From contig NZ_JAGETV010000018.1 of NCBI RefSeq assembly GCF_017571465.1, forward strand, positions 1-48,410: DNA of 48,410 bases. The letters are read 5' to 3'. Numbering within the stretch: position 1 is the first letter of the stretch; each line of letters opens with the position of its first letter. The position numbers were made by a program, and so were the translations under genes. Of this stretch, positions 5,748 to 37,740 are shown one piece after another. A model generated the notes under the pieces. That model saw nothing but the letters and a program-made list of their open reading frames with translations, ran no database searches and had not been told where the DNA came from. This DNA comes from Thiomicrorhabdus marina. Its GTDB lineage: Bacteria; Pseudomonadota; Gammaproteobacteria; Thiomicrospirales; Thiomicrospiraceae.

Positions 5748-5789
5748 AACGGGTAGATTGCTCTCTAAATTGAGGGTAATCGAATGTTT

Positions 5790-5879
5790 TGCCATCCCTA
5801 CGCCAGTATTATCTGGATCAGGTGCTTAGGGTCTTTCATTTTGAAATCTCAGGCCGAAATAAACGGCCGCCCCTTGGCA
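5790..5879 (-). promoter_or_regulatory. TPP riboswitch aptamer (THI element)
   Basis: The minus strand carries the conserved THI-box pieces in order: a GGCCTGAGATTT segment (the CUGAGA core), GACCCTAAGCACCTGATC (the ACC...CCUGAUC core), CAGATAATACTGGCG and GTAGGGA. A closing P1 helix pairs TGCCA (5875-5879) with TGGCA (5790-5794). TPP binding normally represses the gene. The target is the TonB-dependent receptor that starts 100 nt downstream. Confidence 0.95.
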
Positions 5880-6115
5880 TGATTTAAATTAATTAAATGT
5901 TAAACTGTTGATATTTGGAAGGGATTCTACTCTCTAATATGCCAGAATAAAAATTTACTAAAGCGTTGTGCAGAAAAATATCTGAATTCGGGTCGAATGG
6001 GGTGTTTTACATCGACTTTACTTGCGAAAAACTGATTTTCGTGGGAACTGCTTTGATATGATTTGCATTAAATTTCATTCATTCCTTTCCCTGTGATTAC
6101 TTTTTAGAGGTTCCC
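5880..6115. other. Intergenic region, promoters not resolved
   Basis: An AT-rich 236-bp divergent region between the TPP riboswitch and the first HDOD gene. It must hold the two promoters. A TATGAT at about 6055 may be a -10 box for the plus-strand gene, without a convincing -35 box. No other structure seen. Confidence 0.4.
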
Positions 6116-6997
6116 TTGTCAGAAGCCAGTGTTACTAAAGAGATAGTTGAGCGTCTTGCCGAACTTGGCGACCTTCCTCATATCCCGGACGCTTTGATTA
6201 GATTGGAAAAACTACTTTCCGACGATTCCAATGCAGATATTGATGAAATAGTGAATTTAATCGCAATGGATTCGCGTTTGACTGCTGGAATTATCTTTAT
6301 GGCGAATACGGCTAAATATTCGTTAGGAACGCAAATCAATGATCTGTTTGAAGCCGTTATTCGTATCGGCTTGCAAGACGTGCGTATGTTGGCTTATGCC
6401 ATTAGTTATCAACAGTCGTTCAAGCGTAAACCGCCATTTAGTGAAGAGCGTTTCATGCAACAAGCAATGCTGAGCGCTTTGATTGGTCAGAATTTAGCTG
6501 AAGTTTGTCATTTGAACGAAGGGGAAGCTTTTCTTGCAGGGCTTTTGCGTGATATCGGCGTCTATCTACTGGCGTTAGAGAGTCGAGACAAATACCAGGA
6601 AGTTCTTACTAAAGTCGATTTTAATATTCTTAAACTCCCCGTTCATGAAAACAAAGCGTTTGGAACCTACCATGCTTTAATGAGTGCTCGTCTTTTACAG
6701 CTTTGGAATTTCTCGCAAGAAGTGATTATGGGGGTGGCTTACCACCACATTCCAGACAAGGTGAAAGGCGGTTTTTCGTCTTATGCATATTTGACGTATC
6801 TAACTGAAATCGGCGCTTTCAAATTGGGTGTCGATAACGGTATCGGCGAAATTCCGCCGGAATATTGGCCGAAGGTCGAAGAAAAAATGAATGTGGCTTT
6901 GGAAAAGTTAAAAGTTACTCCCGAGCATTTTCAGTCCGTTCTTGAAAAGTCCTTTGCCGAATTTAACCATCTCAGCCCAATTGACTCGGACAATTAA
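6116..6997 (+). CDS. HDOD-domain protein
   Basis: 293 aa from a TTG start; TAGAGG lies about 6 nt upstream and there is no better in-frame ATG. An HDOD domain fills about residues 10-215: LPHIPDALIRLEKLLSD, a hydrophobic helical core, and GEAFLAGLLRDIGVYLLALE, where a true HD phosphohydrolase would have its metal-binding HD pair. HDOD domains have lost the metal ligands and act as regulatory scaffolds in signalling. A second HDOD gene lies at 20460-21293. A hairpin (7009-7032) separates it from thrS. Exact role unknown. Confidence 0.85.
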   Translation: MSEASVTKEIVERLAELGDLPHIPDALIRLEKLLSDDSNADIDEIVNLIAMDSRLTAGIIFMANTAKYSLGTQINDLFEAVIRIGLQDVRMLAYAISYQQSFKRKPPFSEERFMQQAMLSALIGQNLAEVCHLNEGEAFLAGLLRDIGVYLLALESRDKYQEVLTKVDFNILKLPVHENKAFGTYHALMSARLLQLWNFSQEVIMGVAYHHIPDKVKGGFSSYAYLTYLTEIGAFKLGVDNGIGEIPPEYWPKVEEKMNVALEKLKVTPEHFQSVLEKSFAEFNHLSPIDSDN

Positions 6998-14851: not shown

Positions 14852-14928
14852 CGGAGTGTAGCGCAGTCTGGTAGCGCAGCAGTCTGGGGGACTGTTGGTC
14901 GTCGGTTCAAATCCGGCCTCTCCGACCA
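14852..14928 (+). tRNA. tRNA-Pro (GGG anticodon)
   Basis: 77-nt cloverleaf with an encoded 3' CCA. The acceptor stem CGGAGTG pairs with CTCTCCG with one T-T mismatch (6:67). The D arm is GTAGCGCAGTCTGGTAGCGC. The anticodon stem GCAGT/ACTGT encloses the loop CTGGGGG with GGG at 14886-14888, and the T arm contains GGTTCAAATCC. Reads CCC/CCU proline codons. Conserved location after ihfA-merR. Confidence 0.97.
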
Positions 14929-30537: not shown

Positions 30538-30565
30538 TTGACATTGAAAAAAGTATTTTTAGAAA
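30538..30565 (+). promoter_or_regulatory. Candidate cas operon promoter
   Basis: A perfect -35 TTGACA (30538-30543), a 16-bp spacer and a -10 TAGAAA (30560-30565). A second TTGACA lies at 30529-30534. It points toward cas9. Transcription from here would give cas9 a leader of about 180 nt that runs antisense through the whole tracrRNA gene. Confidence 0.45.
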
Positions 30566-30621
30566 TAGAATGGTGGTTAATTTGATGTTTAGTGAAAATC
30601 TGTTTTTGTGGAGAAAGGGGA

Positions 30622-30730
30622 AATAAAAAAGCCCCCACTGGGAGGGCTTGGGACGCATGGAAGCGTTGCCTACGAAATATCAATTTCTTGGTATGAAAAG
30701 CTAAATCATAGACCTTAGTCGGTTACTAAT
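30622..30730 (-). ncRNA. tracrRNA of the type II-C system
   Basis: The minus strand begins with an anti-repeat: 30709-30726 is an 18-nt perfect match to the CRISPR repeat (segment TAGACCTTAGTCGGTTAC in repeat orientation), so the transcript pairs with crRNA. After an internal bulge, UCAUACC (30690-30696) can pair with the repeat's first seven bases GUUGUGA (six of seven, one G-U). Then come hairpin GAAAT-TGAT-ATTTC (30674-30687, nexus-like), hairpin ACGC-TTCCAT-GCGT (30653-30666) and an intrinsic terminator AAGCCC.../...GGGCTT with TTTTTT (30624-30649). This order is that of type II tracrRNAs. Confidence 0.9.
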
Positions 30731-30736
30731 GTGAAG

Positions 30737-30765
30737 ATATTAACAGGATAACTTATGACAAACAA
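30737..30765 (-). promoter_or_regulatory. Candidate tracrRNA promoter
   Basis: On the minus strand TTGTTT (30760-30765) and TAATAT (30737-30742) are 17 bp apart. Start would fall near 30730, exactly where the anti-repeat begins. The -35 box lies inside cas9 codons 2-4, so this promoter and the cas9 translation start share DNA. Confidence 0.55.
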
Positions 30766-33700
30766 CACCATTCTTGGCTTAGACCTTGGTACAAACTCTA
30801 TTGGTTGGGCACTCTATCATGCTGATATAGACTCCCAAATTACAGGGTTTATTGATTCAGGAGTTCGGATTTTTCCGATGTCAGTTGAAGACAAAACGAA
30901 AAATTCGAAAAATGCAGCACGAAGAAGTAAGCGATTAGCCCGACGAGTTATCCAACGCAGAGCTAAACGAAAGCAAAGAATGCTTAATTTTTTAATGAGC
31001 TTAGACTTCCTCCCCCAAACCCTTATCAATGAATTACAACCAGAAATTATCCTAAATGACTTAGGTGACCCATACGCACTAAGAGCCAAGGCGTTAGACC
31101 ATCCTCTAACCTCACATCAATTGGGCAGAGTTTTACTACACCTTGTACAAAGACGAGGGTTTCAATCCAATCGCAAAACACTGTTTGGCGATATGATTGA
31201 TGATCCTGATTTAATGGAAGTCGTCAGTCAAGAAGCAGAAGTCGAGGCATTAGATAAAGAAGAAGGTGATTATTTACAATCCATTGCCGAATTACGGCAG
31301 CAGATTGAACAATCGGGGGCGAGAAGCCTAGGTGAGTATTTATCTCAAATCCCTAATCAAGAACCCAAGCGCAACCGAGACCACCTAAACACACCGCTTC
31401 GCACTGACCGTCAAATGTATAAAGACGAATTTTGGCAAATCATCAATACGCAAAAAATTCATCACCCTATTTTAGAAGCACAAGCCGAAGCGTTATATAA
31501 AATCATCTTTTTTCAACGCCCTTTAAAATTGCAGAGTGATCGAGTCGGCAAATGTTCGCTTGAACCTAACTCAAAGCGCGCCCGCTGTGCATGGCGTGAT
31601 TATCAAGAATTTCGCTATCTGCAAGATATTAATAATTTTCAGACTTTCAACAGCTATGAAGGTGAATGGCGAAAATTGCGAGATGATGAAAGAGAAAAAC
31701 TTGTCGAACTCTTTGAGAATAATGCACACCCAACTTTAACACAAATCAAAAAAACGCTTGGGTTAAGCCGTAATGATAAATTCAATTATGACCGAGCTGA
31801 TAATAAGAAATTTAAAGGTAATTTGACAAAAATTGAAATCGAGTCAGCCTTTCCTGAATGGCGCACTTTATCTAGTGAACAACAAAGCCAACTTGAAGAA
31901 GACGTGATTACCTTTAACAGCAAAAAGGCTCTAAAAAAACGCTTAATCAATCACTGGAATCTAACTCCAGAACAAGCTGTTAAACTTGCTTTAGTCGAAT
32001 TTGAACCTGAGCACAGCGACCTCTCTTTAAAGGCTATTAGAAAGTTGTTGCCATGTTTACGCCAAGGGATGATGTACTCCGAAGCTAGACAAAAAGCAGG
32101 CTATAGCTATAAACCAGAAGAAAAACAAATATTTGAAACTTTACCTATAGCTCCTACACTTGCCAATCCAATTGTAAACCGCGCTCTTTCAGAGCTAAGA
32201 CGAGTTGTCAATGCGATTATTAAACAACACGGCAAGCCGACTTCGATTCGTTTAGAAATGGCACGCGATTTGGAAATGAACACCAAGCGCTATAAAGCCT
32301 TTAATAAACAACAAGCAGACAACACCAAACAAAACGATGAAGCCTCTCAACAGTTCCAAGCAATACGAGAAAAAAACGCGCATCTTGGGCTAAGTAAATA
32401 CCCAAGTCGTGATGACAAAATTCGTTATCGCCTGTGGCTCGAACAAGGCAAAGTTTGTGCCTATTCGCAAAAACCGATTAGCCAAACGCAACTGTTTTCC
32501 GCAGAAACCGAAGTTGACCACATTGTCCCTTATTCAAAATCTTTAAATGATTCTTATATGAATAAGGTGATTTGCTTTGCCCATCAAAATCAATTCAAAG
32601 GTCAAAGAACCCCGATTGAAGCCTTTGCTCAAAACCCAGAGCAATGGGAACAAATTGAGCAATTTGTCGCTAAACACTACGACAAACGATTACTGTCTAA
32701 ACAGCAAGCGTTTTACAAAAAATCTGACGATGATGTCAGTGAAATGATTAACTCACAACTTAATGACACACGCTATATCTCACGGGAAGCTCTGCATTAT
32801 TTAAAACTTTTAGGAAGTGATGTCACAACCGTTAAAGGACAAATTACCGCTTGGCTAAGACATATCTGGGGGCTTAACCGCTTATTGAATAAAGATGACT
32901 CGACAGATAAAAATCGTGCTGACCATCGCCATCATTTGATTGACGCTACGGTGATTGCCTGTATTGACCGTCGTTTTTATAACACGCTAATAAAACTTGC
33001 TAAAGAACTTGAACGCACACCCGGAAAGCTAAGAGTTAAAGATTTGCATTTTGAGCCTGTATTTGAGGAGTTCGTTGAAAAGTTGCAAAGCCAACTTGAT
33101 AGAGTCATTGTTTCTCACACGCCACAACGAAAACTCAGTGGAGCTTTGCATGAAGACACTGGATTAGGATTTAGAGAAGGTTTAGGGACAATCTCGCGTT
33201 TGAATGTCAGTTCACTAAAATCCGAACTTTCAAAGAAATTAACCAAAACAACAAACAATGAGGCTAAACAAAAAGTTCTGGACAAGGCTCTTAATGCCAT
33301 TATTGACGATAGTGTTCGCGAGCAAGTCGCGCAATTTTTATTAAGCGAGAGTGATCAGCCTTGGCCATTGCACAAAGATGGTAAAACGCCAATAAAACGT
33401 GTGCGAGTTGTGAAAAGCAAAACAGTGACAAAACTAGCAAAACTGACAGATGAAAAAGTCGGTATTCGCAACCTCGCCGGTGAAATCTTTAAATGGCATA
33501 GCTATGGCAACACCCACTGTTTATTAGTGATTCAACCTCAAGACAAAGAGGCCTTCGCCCATCAAATTACGGTTTATGAAGCCGCCCAAAAACTCTCTAA
33601 GGGGCAAAATTTAATGGAAGGTTATGACATCCCAGAAAATGCCCGTCACTTTTTTCTTTACAAAAATGACACCGTTCAACTCATGATTAATGACCAGTCA

Positions 33701-33886
33701 AAATTATTTCTTGTTACCAAGTTTGGTCAGCTATCCCAAGGAAAACAACCAAGACCAAACATTCAACCATTGAACAATGGACTGCCTATAAAAGATGAAG
33801 ATATTTCTGATTCGATAAAAAATCTAGTCAATAAATATCAAATTCAACCGATAAAGGTTAATGCTATAGGCCAAAAGATGGAATAA
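30755..33886 (+). CDS. cas9: CRISPR-associated endonuclease Cas9, type II-C
   Basis: 1043 aa, compact like Neisseria Cas9 (1082 aa). RuvC-I GLDLGTNSIGWAL with Asp10; Arg-rich bridge helix AARRSKRLARRVIQRRAKRK (about 50-70); REC lobe; RuvC-II with IRLEMARDL (Glu about 505); HNH nuclease VDHIVPYS with Asp588-His589; RuvC-III ADHRHHLIDATV with His727 and Asp730; C-terminal PAM-interacting region. All catalytic residues are present, so both strands of a target should be cut. AGGATA ribosome site before ATG. Followed by cas1 after 4 bp, with no cas4 or csn2, which defines subtype II-C. Codon use looks more AT-rich than the neighbours. Confidence 0.97.
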   Translation: MTNNTILGLDLGTNSIGWALYHADIDSQITGFIDSGVRIFPMSVEDKTKNSKNAARRSKRLARRVIQRRAKRKQRMLNFLMSLDFLPQTLINELQPEIILNDLGDPYALRAKALDHPLTSHQLGRVLLHLVQRRGFQSNRKTLFGDMIDDPDLMEVVSQEAEVEALDKEEGDYLQSIAELRQQIEQSGARSLGEYLSQIPNQEPKRNRDHLNTPLRTDRQMYKDEFWQIINTQKIHHPILEAQAEALYKIIFFQRPLKLQSDRVGKCSLEPNSKRARCAWRDYQEFRYLQDINNFQTFNSYEGEWRKLRDDEREKLVELFENNAHPTLTQIKKTLGLSRNDKFNYDRADNKKFKGNLTKIEIESAFPEWRTLSSEQQSQLEEDVITFNSKKALKKRLINHWNLTPEQAVKLALVEFEPEHSDLSLKAIRKLLPCLRQGMMYSEARQKAGYSYKPEEKQIFETLPIAPTLANPIVNRALSELRRVVNAIIKQHGKPTSIRLEMARDLEMNTKRYKAFNKQQADNTKQNDEASQQFQAIREKNAHLGLSKYPSRDDKIRYRLWLEQGKVCAYSQKPISQTQLFSAETEVDHIVPYSKSLNDSYMNKVICFAHQNQFKGQRTPIEAFAQNPEQWEQIEQFVAKHYDKRLLSKQQAFYKKSDDDVSEMINSQLNDTRYISREALHYLKLLGSDVTTVKGQITAWLRHIWGLNRLLNKDDSTDKNRADHRHHLIDATVIACIDRRFYNTLIKLAKELERTPGKLRVKDLHFEPVFEEFVEKLQSQLDRVIVSHTPQRKLSGALHEDTGLGFREGLGTISRLNVSSLKSELSKKLTKTTNNEAKQKVLDKALNAIIDDSVREQVAQFLLSESDQPWPLHKDGKTPIKRVRVVKSKTVTKLAKLTDEKVGIRNLAGEIFKWHSYGNTHCLLVIQPQDKEAFAHQITVYEAAQKLSKGQNLMEGYDIPENARHFFLYKNDTVQLMINDQSKLFLVTKFGQLSQGKQPRPNIQPLNNGLPIKDEDISDSIKNLVNKYQIQPIKVNAIGQKME

Positions 33887-33890
33887 ACAG

Positions 33891-34784
33891 ATGATAAAGC
33901 GCACACTTGAAATCAGTAACCCTGTCTATCTCAAAGCTCGCAAACAGCAGTTAGTCATTGAAAAAGAGCAGGAGGTCGTTGCAAGTGTGCCTTTTGACGA
34001 TTTGGGAATATTGTTACTCGCTCATCCTCAAATTGTACTAACTCAAGCAGTTATAACAGCGTGCCATGATGTCAATGCGGTCATTATTCACTGCTCAAGT
34101 AAATACCTCCCGATTAGTCTTACTCAATCTATTGCTTCTCATAGCTTACATGCCAAAACACTTCGAGAGCAAATTGCACTTTCAACGGTTCGACAGAAAC
34201 AGCTCTGGCAACAAATCGTAATCGAGAAAATTCATCAACAGCTACATACCCTTTCATTGTTTGGAAAAAATCATCCTGAAATTGAACGCTTAGCCAAAAA
34301 CGTTCACAGTGGCGATAAACACAACTACGAAGCTCAAGCCGCGCAAAAATACTGGCCAACCCTAATGGGTGCTAACTTTCATCGCGACTTTGAAGAGTCT
34401 GGAATCAACCAGCTTCTTAACTATGGTTATGCCATTATTCGAGCCGCGGTAGCAAGAGCAATTGTAAAAACGGGATTTCACCCATCTTTAGGTCTAAACC
34501 ATCACAATCAATATAACGGTTTCTGCCTAGCCGATGACTTAATGGAGCCCTTTCGACCATGGATAGATGAAATTACATTAAACCAAGAATCTTATAATCT
34601 TAATCAGGAAACGAAAGCTAGCTACCTTCAAATTTTAGCAAGTGATGTTTTATTTAAAGATCGTCAGATGCCATTTATGATCGCCCTAGATTATTTTGTC
34701 GCGCAGGTTAAGCAGTCTTATCAAGACAAAACTACTCAGCTTCAATTTCCACAACGGATACTTAAATCAGATGGAGGGAATTAA
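33891..34784 (+). CDS. cas1: CRISPR adaptation integrase Cas1
   Basis: 297 aa, type II Cas1 of usual length. Metal-site residues visible: Glu in HNYEAQAAQKYW, His in GLNHHNQYNGF and Asp/Glu in LADDLMEPFRPWID. N-terminal beta domain (about 1-85) and C-terminal helical integrase domain. With Cas2 it inserts new spacers. Sits 4 bp after cas9, and its stop shares one base with the cas2 start (TAATG). Confidence 0.97.
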   Translation: MIKRTLEISNPVYLKARKQQLVIEKEQEVVASVPFDDLGILLLAHPQIVLTQAVITACHDVNAVIIHCSSKYLPISLTQSIASHSLHAKTLREQIALSTVRQKQLWQQIVIEKIHQQLHTLSLFGKNHPEIERLAKNVHSGDKHNYEAQAAQKYWPTLMGANFHRDFEESGINQLLNYGYAIIRAAVARAIVKTGFHPSLGLNHHNQYNGFCLADDLMEPFRPWIDEITLNQESYNLNQETKASYLQILASDVLFKDRQMPFMIALDYFVAQVKQSYQDKTTQLQFPQRILKSDGGN

Positions 34785-35113
34785 TGGTTTTTGGAGGAAT
34801 GCATACGATGTGGGTGATTGTTTTATTTGATTTACCGACCGATGATCAGCTAGCAAGAAAACGCTACCGAGAGTTTCGTGAATGCCTGCTAACGGACGGG
34901 TTCAGCATGATGCAATACAGTGTTTACATGCGCCATTGTTCATCGGAAGAAAATGCTAAAATCCACTGCAAAAAAGTTAAAGACCACTTACCACCTGATG
35001 GTGAGGTACGGATTTTTAAAATTACTGACAAACAGTTTTCAAAAATTGAGGTCTATTTTGGTAAAAAACGTAAGCCAACAGAAAAAGCCCCAGAACAACT
35101 TATGTTTTTCTGA
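34784..35113 (+). CDS. cas2: CRISPR adaptation protein Cas2
   Basis: 109 aa from ATG 34784 (GGAGGG 5 nt upstream). ATG at 34808 (MWVIVLFDLPT), with GGAGG about 10 nt upstream, gives the more usual 101 aa and matches the family start. Ferredoxin fold: VIVLFDLPTDDQLARKRYRE, DGFSMMQYSVYMRHC and VRIFKITDKQFSKIEVYFG. Bridges two Cas1 dimers in spacer integration. Terminal gene of the cas operon, 50 bp from the array. Confidence 0.95.
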   Translation: MVFGGMHTMWVIVLFDLPTDDQLARKRYREFRECLLTDGFSMMQYSVYMRHCSSEENAKIHCKKVKDHLPPDGEVRIFKITDKQFSKIEVYFGKKRKPTEKAPEQLMFF

Positions 35114-35163: not shown

Positions 35164-35331
35164 AGTGTAACCGACTAAGGTCTAACCGCAAATCACAACT
35201 GCCGAGTGGGGTGGATATACATCTTTGTGAGTGTAACCGACTAAGGTCTAACCGCAAATCACAACCGGGATCGATGTCGTTTCGAGCACTTGCGAAGTGT
35301 AACCGACTAAGGTCTAACCGCAAATCACAAC
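35164..35331 (-). CRISPR. Type II-C CRISPR array: 3 repeats, 2 spacers
   Basis: Three identical 36-nt repeats at 35164-35199, 35230-35265 and 35296-35331, with two 30-nt spacers between. In crRNA orientation (minus strand, by the GTTGTGATTTGCGG start typical of type II and by the tracrRNA match) the repeat ends GTCGGTTACACT. The last bases TACACT resemble a -10 box, as in Neisseria, where each repeat carries its own promoter. The leader side would be above 35331. Neither spacer matches anything seen in this window. An open frame across the array is an artefact of the repeats. Confidence 0.97.
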
Positions 35332-37364: not shown

Positions 37365-37452
37365 GTGAATTCTTTCACCAACGGTGTTGTAACTCGTTTG
37401 TGTAGCATGCTTAGACCACACTCGTTACGCCTTGTTGGATAAAAGAATTCAC
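37365..37452. repeat. Palindromic repeat unit 1 of a tandem cluster (family A-like)
   Basis: Arms GTGAATTCTTT (37365-37375) and AAAGAATTCAC (37442-37452) enclose CACCAACGGTGTTGTAACTCG...GTGTAGCATGC...CTCGTTACGCCTTGTTGG, a nested imperfect palindrome. Directly follows the SulP gene. First of four related units. Confidence 0.7.
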
Positions 37453-37463
37453 TTTGAAAATGC

Positions 37464-37567
37464 TCTGACTTTTCGATTGGCTTACCAGCGTTGTTAGCAC
37501 TCGCTCGTGTAGCATGCCTACACGTCACTCTTGCTGTCTAGCTGGATAAGCAAATCGCTTTGTCAGA
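37464..37567. repeat. Palindromic repeat unit 2 of the tandem cluster (family A)
   Basis: Arms TCTGACTTTTCGATTGGCTT and AAGCAAATCGCTTTGTCAGA pair, with inner CCAGC/GCTGG and a central hairpin CGTGTA-GCATGCC-TACACG. Core GCGTTGTTAGC...CTCGCTCG...CGTCACTC...GCTGTCTAG matches the family A core seen at 28314-28395. Confidence 0.8.
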
Positions 37568-37569
37568 TT

Positions 37570-37740
37570 GCTATGATTTTTAACTTGTAAAGTGTAACGA
37601 CACGGCACAGTTCACTGCCTAGCTGGACAAGTCAATGAGTTTGTCAGTGACTTTTCTCTCAACTTTGTTTGGCGCTCTTTTGTGTAGCATGCCTACACGT
37701 CGCTTTTGCTACTTAGCAGGGACTGACAATTCGTTTTGTC
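37570..37740. repeat. Palindromic repeat units 3 (partial) and 4 of the tandem cluster
   Basis: 37580-37640 repeats the right half of unit 2 (TGCCTAGCTGGACAAGTCAA, then GAGTTTGTCAG) without its left half. 37632-37740 is a full unit with arms TTGTCAGT/ACTGACAA and the same centre GTGTAGCATGCCTACACGTC. Together with units 1 and 2 this fills the 410-bp gap after the SulP gene. Confidence 0.65.

Follow-up and report, generated by a model that had tools for sequence, protein, structure and literature searches.

The very probable tracrRNA gene of a type II-C CRISPR-Cas locus in Thiomicrorhabdus marina, compared across its relatives

The L030 locus of genome G034, which we take to be a Neisseria-type II-C system, has its tracrRNA upstream of cas9 and on the opposite strand, and the RNA comprises a lower stem, an internal loop, an upper stem, hairpins and a terminator-like end, all of which recur in the locus described below. 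The lower stem of this Neisseria-like RNA is continuous over eight positions (GUUGUAGC/GCUACAAU), with a loop read as 5 x 5. According to the text of PMC7606464, the position and orientation of the tracrRNA vary between Cas9 clades but are conserved within a clade. In a survey of metagenomic type II effectors the commonest layout was a tracrRNA in reverse orientation (69.8%) and upstream of the effector (79.2%), a layout that the RNA described here shares, and among the tracrRNAs of that survey we recognised no member of the present clade (PMC10278012). Two further RNAs are relevant as regulators. One is tracr-L (Workman et al. 2021), which a 2021 review places in some II-A systems and describes as not found in other subtypes (PMC8616872). 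The other is the scaRNA of Francisella novicida and Neisseria meningitidis, a small CRISPR-associated guide-like RNA encoded near cas9 that regulates host genes (PMC8616872, PMC13431127).

The window, by which we mean the whole 48,410-nt stretch of T. marina DNA that was analysed, is contig C9 (NZ_JAGETV010000018.1) of a 2.83-Mb draft assembly in 82 contigs with an estimated completeness of 99.99%. Its CRISPR-Cas locus is of subtype II-C, with cas9, cas1 and cas2 in an operon without csn2 or cas4, a Cas9 of the ~1000 amino acid class (1043 residues) and a type II Cas1; the arrangement follows from the lengths of the gaps between cas9, cas1, cas2 and the array, which leave no room for a further gene. 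Window Cas9 is 45–54% identical to the first four relatives aligned, and the nearest of 49 solved Cas9 sequences is 9ar4 (291.6 bits). Cas9 searches returned 56 plasmid records and one phage record, every one below 60% identity. The crRNA-sense repeat, read off the minus strand, is GTTGTGATTTGCGGTTAGACCTTAGTCGGTTACACT. Exact matches to either window spacer seed (19 and 20 nt) are absent from the viral contigs searched, and since spacer-seed scans of viral contigs with the window and its relatives gave a match in none of six cases, no PAM could be read. Elsewhere in the window lie a TPP riboswitch (5778-5884, minus strand, 81.3 bits), a tRNA (14852-14925, plus strand, 58.8 bits) and, at 37387-37720, three imperfect 52-nt repeats at spacings of 107 and 175 nt with a partly palindromic core, GTGTAGCATGC. 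The features of the locus are as follows (window coordinates):

30544..30571, plus strand: weak candidate cas9 promoter TTGAAA-16-TAGAAT, at chance level (2 promoter-like sites against 1.3 expected)
30622..30649, minus strand: intrinsic terminator hairpin and T run (terminator scan, covariation)
30625..30728, minus strand: predicted tracrRNA, ~104 nt up to the T run (anti-repeat, family comparison, covariance model)
30653..30666, minus strand: hairpin 2, ACGC-UUCCAU-GCGU (bound fold, covariation)
30665..30673, minus strand: conserved nexus, GUAGGCAAC, whose UAGGC can pair with the anti-repeat end in the predicted fold of the free RNA (alignment, consensus fold)
30674..30687, minus strand: hairpin 1, GAAAU-UGAU-AUUUC (bound fold, covariation)
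30690..30701, minus strand: lower-stem box GCUUUUCAUACC, in register with repeat positions 12-1 (alignment, cofold)
30702..30708, minus strand: the seven tracrRNA nucleotides of an asymmetric internal loop, 3 x 7 (swap alignment, cofold)
30709..30726, minus strand: anti-repeat (upper stem), 18 nt, complementary to repeat positions 16-33 (identity, genome scan, swap test)
30737..30765, minus strand: predicted promoter TTGTTT-17-TAATAT, its -35 element inside the cas9 coding start (conserved place in relatives)
30755..33886, plus strand: cas9, 1043 amino acids (TIGR01865, 620 bits)
33891..34784, plus strand: cas1, type II (TIGR03639, 263.4 bits)
34784..35113, plus strand: cas2 (TIGR01573, 78.3 bits)
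35164..35331, minus strand in crRNA sense: CRISPR array of three 36-nt repeats and two 30-nt spacers

We are nearly certain that the stretch upstream of cas9 is the tracrRNA gene of this system. It has an anti-repeat to the locus's own repeat lying outside the array, with cas9 in the same locus, and it offers a duplex of lower stem, internal loop and upper stem followed by 3' hairpins and a terminator. Its sequence, complementarity, covariation, conserved position, terminator and conserved promoter position were all computed here. A tracrRNA on this strand, with its parts in this order, had been proposed in the initial annotation, and comparison with relatives (43 loci) bears out the reading, the strand and the order alike. 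A covariance model of the family scores the window RNA at 109 bits, although by construction the window is one of its 42 training rows. Against Rfam release 15, tracrRNA families included, no match reached the gathering score, and below it there were three weak matches to families of unrelated name (E 0.03–0.34).

The relatives were gathered by a search of a species-level genome collection with a profile of five Cas9 sequences, which yielded 56 loci; adding the window and three genomes of its family gave 42 distinct tracrRNAs, or 43 once L096 and L097 were added and L074 left out. Among the 56, L067, L084, L087 and L098 were dropped as duplicates, and a further 12 (L091, L102, L105, L107-L110, L113-L116, L118) do not show the family core in the region examined, being truncated or carrying a different tracrRNA. 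L074, which has an insert, lies outside the alignment, as L097 lies outside alignment A2; the L074 insert (~6850-6940) repeats part of the lower-stem box, with a second ATACCAATG. In all 43 type II-C loci, the window included, the tracrRNA is upstream of cas9 and on the opposite strand, orientation being taken from the Cas9 start in 41 loci and from tblastn coordinates in L103 and L119. The core motif occurs in five of 62 genomes of the family, the same five that have the strongest Cas9 matches.

A covariance search of relatives, suggested at the outset as a check, detected the RNA (model R2) in 6 genomes out of the 369 searched in the class, in 8 out of 398 in the phylum and in 8 out of 83 in the order to which G383 belongs. 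These counts include the window's own genome (one of the six in the class and one of the eight in the phylum) and loci already known (G304 = L066, G807 = L096, G863 = L097), and G383 and G285 recur between searches; in the order of G304 the search returned only the locus already known. At 10 of the 11 model-found loci looked at, a Cas9 N-terminal motif is present on the opposite strand, L125 being the miss. The same cas9–tracrRNA stretch appears in Thiomicrorhabdus (S012_112) and Ghiorsea (S012) records (L067, L068, L127), and the G001 contig may be mis-binned.

The anti-repeat was verified: the 18-nt identity reported for 30709-30726 is an 18/18 inverted match to all three repeats. Nor did the assembly yield a better candidate, a possibility raised with the initial reading. 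When repeat positions 16-35 (20 nt, up to three mismatches) were scanned against the whole assembly, only the three repeats and the 30709-30726 site were found; a reversed-pattern control gave no matches, and with equal base frequencies ~0.0016 exact 18-mer matches would be expected by chance. A BLAST search with repeat plus spacer as query also returned matches on contigs C7 (17 nt, E 0.047) and C55 (weak, E 1.97). The C7 match was rejected as a better anti-repeat, for it covers repeat positions 1-11 and 6 nt of spacer. In the coding start of cas9 (30778-30786) there is a 9-nt match to the repeat, TTAGACCTT, which we take to be a chance product of LDLG codons.

Repeat and anti-repeat have changed together in the family. 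Across the 24 of 42 loci for which the repeat is known, pairing each anti-repeat with its own repeat over positions 16-36 scores 491.0 of 504, against 441.0 +/- 6.5 with partners swapped, and none of 20000 shuffles did as well, kinship among the sequences inflating shuffle tests of this sort. Positions 16, 18, 19, 21, 22, 24, 27, 28 and 35 change on both sides, with recurring pair types at position 27 (C-G, T-A, G-C) and position 22 (T-A, A-T, C-G). The window anti-repeat is without the pairs at positions 34-36 that most relatives have.

The lower stem required more revision. It had been described as a seven-base second pairing segment separated from the anti-repeat by a long bulge of 12 x 8 nt, the bulge being suggested as a feature of this ortholog. 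In our alignment the box GCUUUUCAUACC lies ungapped opposite the repeat start, GUUGUGAUUUGC, and in the predicted duplex of the window pair repeat positions 3-7, 11 and 12 are paired at P 0.81–0.99. Five of the seven proposed pairs (positions 3-7) therefore stand with confidence, whereas position 2 is a U x C mismatch and position 1 pairs at P 0.39 only. Positions 11 and 12 pair, at P 0.98, inside the supposed bulge, which was accordingly rejected: the segment is an in-register, U.U-rich helix common to the family rather than a peculiarity of this RNA. What remains is a loop of three crRNA by seven tracrRNA nucleotides in the window, ranging over 0-3 x 0-9 across 24 loci. Positions 8-10 are U.U in most of these 24, and the register is taken to be real because such positions become Watson-Crick pairs in relatives: at position 8 L082 and L104 have U-A and L075 has A-U, at position 10 L029 and L125 have A-U, and in L126 (G245) positions 1-11 form one continuous stem with U2-A, U8-A, U9-A, U10-A and C11-G. 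By eye, the minimum-energy cofold contains the in-register lower stem in 19 of 23 loci; in the other four (L075, L079, L083, L093) it is the nexus region that pairs with the start of the repeat. The mismatch at position 2, one pair from the guide, is U x C in all 24 loci; it is U-A in L108, L109 and L126, which lie outside that set. Compared with the Neisseria-like L030, the window thus differs in the fixed U x C at position 2, the U.U positions 8-10, a G-C/C-G step and the 3 x 7 loop.

Downstream of the duplex, the two small hairpins noted originally are predicted with the repeat bound and covary in relatives. The intrinsic terminator likewise proved sound, with eight pairs (30649-30629, minus strand) followed by the T run and covariation in relatives; three terminator-like sites were found in the region against 0.2 expected. 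Taken together, hairpins and terminator have 93.3% of cells paired in the alignment and eight pairs with double changes, a covariation that none of 500 shuffles equalled on any of the five measures, and versions slid out of register pair in 39–57% of cells.

The TTGTTT-17-TAATAT promoter is present as claimed (30765-30760 and 30742-30737) and lies at the position conserved in relatives. The assertion that transcription starts exactly at the anti-repeat holds less well: the position of the promoter is supported, but the start is a prediction good to a few nucleotides. The window promoter is a modest match to consensus (3/6 at -35 and 4/6 at -10), and promoter scanners favour an overlapping TTGTCA-16-TATCTT. 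The top-scoring promoter-like site stops 5–13 nt short of the anti-repeat in 41 of the 43 loci (L080 and L085 gave an overlapping site), and the mean score over the 43 is 8.47 of 12, against 6.36 in shuffles. The distance from the first in-frame cas9 start to the anti-repeat is 21–32 nt in 31 of 43 loci, 1–6 nt in four and 44–417 nt in six, with no start found in two; the tracrRNA promoter therefore generally overlies the cas9 start region. A conserved promoter on the cas9 strand was sought and rejected, scores being 7.63 against 7.77 in shuffles upstream of the tracrRNA (41 loci) and 7.23 against 7.09 inside it (43 loci), and there is no enrichment in relatives at the place corresponding to the candidate at 30544..30571.

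By analogy with established type II biology, an RNA of ~104 nt would start at the anti-repeat, from the promoter overlying the cas9 start, and its transcription would end at the intrinsic terminator. The anti-repeat would then pair with repeat positions 16-33 and the lower-stem box with positions 1-12, the resulting crRNA:tracrRNA duplex would be trimmed by RNase III, and Cas9 would load the pair, recognising hairpin 1, the nexus and hairpin 2, and cut its target.

Two other explanations of the stretch have to be weighed. The inverted match might be a chance copy of the repeat, or a decayed one, the working tracrRNA lying elsewhere in the genome; a draft of 82 contigs could miss a second copy, and the anti-repeat does want its outermost three pairs. 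That the whole architecture is conserved and coevolving in relatives, and that an assembly of such completeness contains no other near-copy at up to three mismatches, makes this highly improbable. Somewhat less remote, and still unlikely, is an RNA that serves mainly to regulate cas9 in cis, transcribed divergently across the start of the gene and antisense to its mRNA leader. The overlap of promoter and cas9 start region in the 31 loci fits such a role, as does the geometry, from which a leader transcribed from upstream would be antisense to the whole tracrRNA; yet no cas9-strand promoter is conserved upstream of or within the tracrRNA, six loci have a gap of 44–417 nt, and conservation tracks the crRNA duplex and the hairpins.

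A third idea would add to the ordinary-tracrRNA explanation, not replace it. In the consensus fold computed without crRNA, the 3' end of the anti-repeat (GYYUA) pairs with the UAGGC of the nexus. It is possible, if on balance doubtful, that the tracrRNA switches shape, the unbound form being closed by this long-range helix with hairpin 1 mostly lost, crRNA annealing displacing the helix so that hairpin 1 and the nexus can form, and Cas9 preferring the bound form; opening on crRNA annealing is, on these models, plausible. The mean predicted probabilities of the long-range helix and of hairpin 1 are 0.81 and 0.12 in free RNAs (n=42), 0.00 and 0.77 in repeat-bound RNAs (n=23, the hairpin 1 value for L029 being too low, because that hairpin is misaligned in A2) and, once the anti-repeats are shuffled, 0.02 and 0.45, although helix probability is below 0.5 in seven of the 42 free RNAs and the fold predictions ignore Cas9. 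Over 41 distinct rows 98.0% of helix cells are paired, against 23.5–43.1% in slid versions, but the helix lies largely in invariant columns and its shuffles are mixed: double-change cells and covariation score were matched in 0 of 500 each and paired cells in 1 of 500, but double-change pairs in 124 of 500 and further pair types in 500 of 500. Base 20, in the anti-repeat, changes along with base 62, in the nexus (A/T 36, G/C 7, A/C 1, C/T 2, the four most distant rows entered by hand), and of the loci read later L125 and L126 have G/C and L133 C/C; the pair is broken in L027, L068, L077 and L133. On a quick Cas9 tree, base 20 changes three times, each time alongside one of four base 62 changes. 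These counts use 41 rows, L099 and L103 (no N-terminus found) and L093 (too short) being missing from the tree and L125, L126 and L133 outside it, and a sign test on the three pairs gives p 0.25 only, the value of 3.5e-5 assuming equal branches.

The ordinary tracrRNA reading stands for the window, and a further element appears in four relatives. Each of L096, L097, L123 and L124 has, 43–133 nt (start to start) upstream of the tracrRNA and on the same strand, a truncated repeat that begins GTTGTGATTTGC or GTTGTGACTTG:

L096 ~6560-6990 and L097 ~1640-2045, also L123 and L124: half-repeat (tracrRNA strand) and matching site (cas9 strand)

The 10 nt before the half-repeat recur exactly once within the surrounding sequence (up to ~1.7 kb), always on the cas9 strand and between half-repeat and cas9. 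The four seed and half-repeat pairs are CTCAATAGTT then GAAAATTA, CCTAATAGTT then GAAAACAT, CTTCCTAGTA then TAAAATGT, and TCTTATAGTT then GAAAATGT; the seeds differ from each other, yet each matches its own site. By eye, a TATAAT starts 19–21 nt past the site in all four and a TTGAAA overlaps it in three. The PAM is expected to be near NAAAA. With guides shuffled, 77 of 8000 trials gave a match (~1% each), and among the 52 tracrRNA loci scanned a seed match with a half-repeat occurs in these four only. The minimum-energy fold has a single-guide shape in L096 and L124 and lacks it in L097 and L123. There are counter-cases: in L085 a spacer at the array edge likewise finds a 10-nt match within the 8.5 kb of the locus, a long way from where cas9 starts, and L124 has a second match, of 9 nt, in an A/T run. 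Of the loci found in the order of G383, two (L167 and L170) are L096 and L097 over again, L168 shows a half-repeat but no match for it, L165 has none, L166 has an array adjoining the tracrRNA and no cas9 motif nearby, and L169 was left unparsed. Between the putative cas9 promoter and cas9, L097 (1897), L123 (1762) and L124 (1896) have a similar frame of 39–43 amino acids in cas9 sense (M..xxLKxLLQF...), and L096 has a different one of 58.

The half-repeat element of these relatives looks like a type II-C tracr-L or a scaRNA that would repress cas9. With the tracr-L of Streptococcus pyogenes it shares a longer predicted RNA on the tracrRNA strand, a half-repeat in cis and a short match beside the putative cas9 promoter (10 nt, and 11 nt in S. 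pyogenes; PMC8616872), but that system is II-A, whereas the four relatives are II-C. The likeness to scaRNA lies in a small CRISPR-associated guide-like RNA near cas9 and the difference in the aim, here the cas9 upstream region. The window has neither form: exact half-repeats occur only in its array and no seed match reaches 9 nt, so that a tracr-L was rejected there, and as self-targeting guides the window spacers and the stretch ahead of the first repeat were rejected too, their best seeds being 8–9 nt with none in the cas9 upstream region. None of the papers searched contains both 'tracr-L' and 'type II-C'. We regard as evenly poised the proposal that the tracrRNA gene of this II-C clade doubles as a regulator of cas9. 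In the four-locus lineage, to which the window does not belong, transcription from upstream would yield a single guide of natural origin, made up of guide, half-repeat, linker and tracrRNA, and its 10-nt seed would dock Cas9, without cleavage, next to the putative promoter of cas9. The device is absent from loci such as the window, in which the tracrRNA promoter overlies the start of cas9, and there antisense overlap or the closed form could take its place.

The window feature is itself an ordinary tracrRNA of known sort, and the interest lies in two family-level side findings, both of them predictions. The annotation supplies what was missing for tests of this Cas9 family, its RNA component with the duplex in the correct register. 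Beyond that, the family alignment raises two testable ideas, namely that the tracrRNA may refold as the crRNA anneals and that in one II-C lineage an extended tracrRNA may let cas9 repress itself, which, if true, would be a type II-C counterpart of tracr-L.
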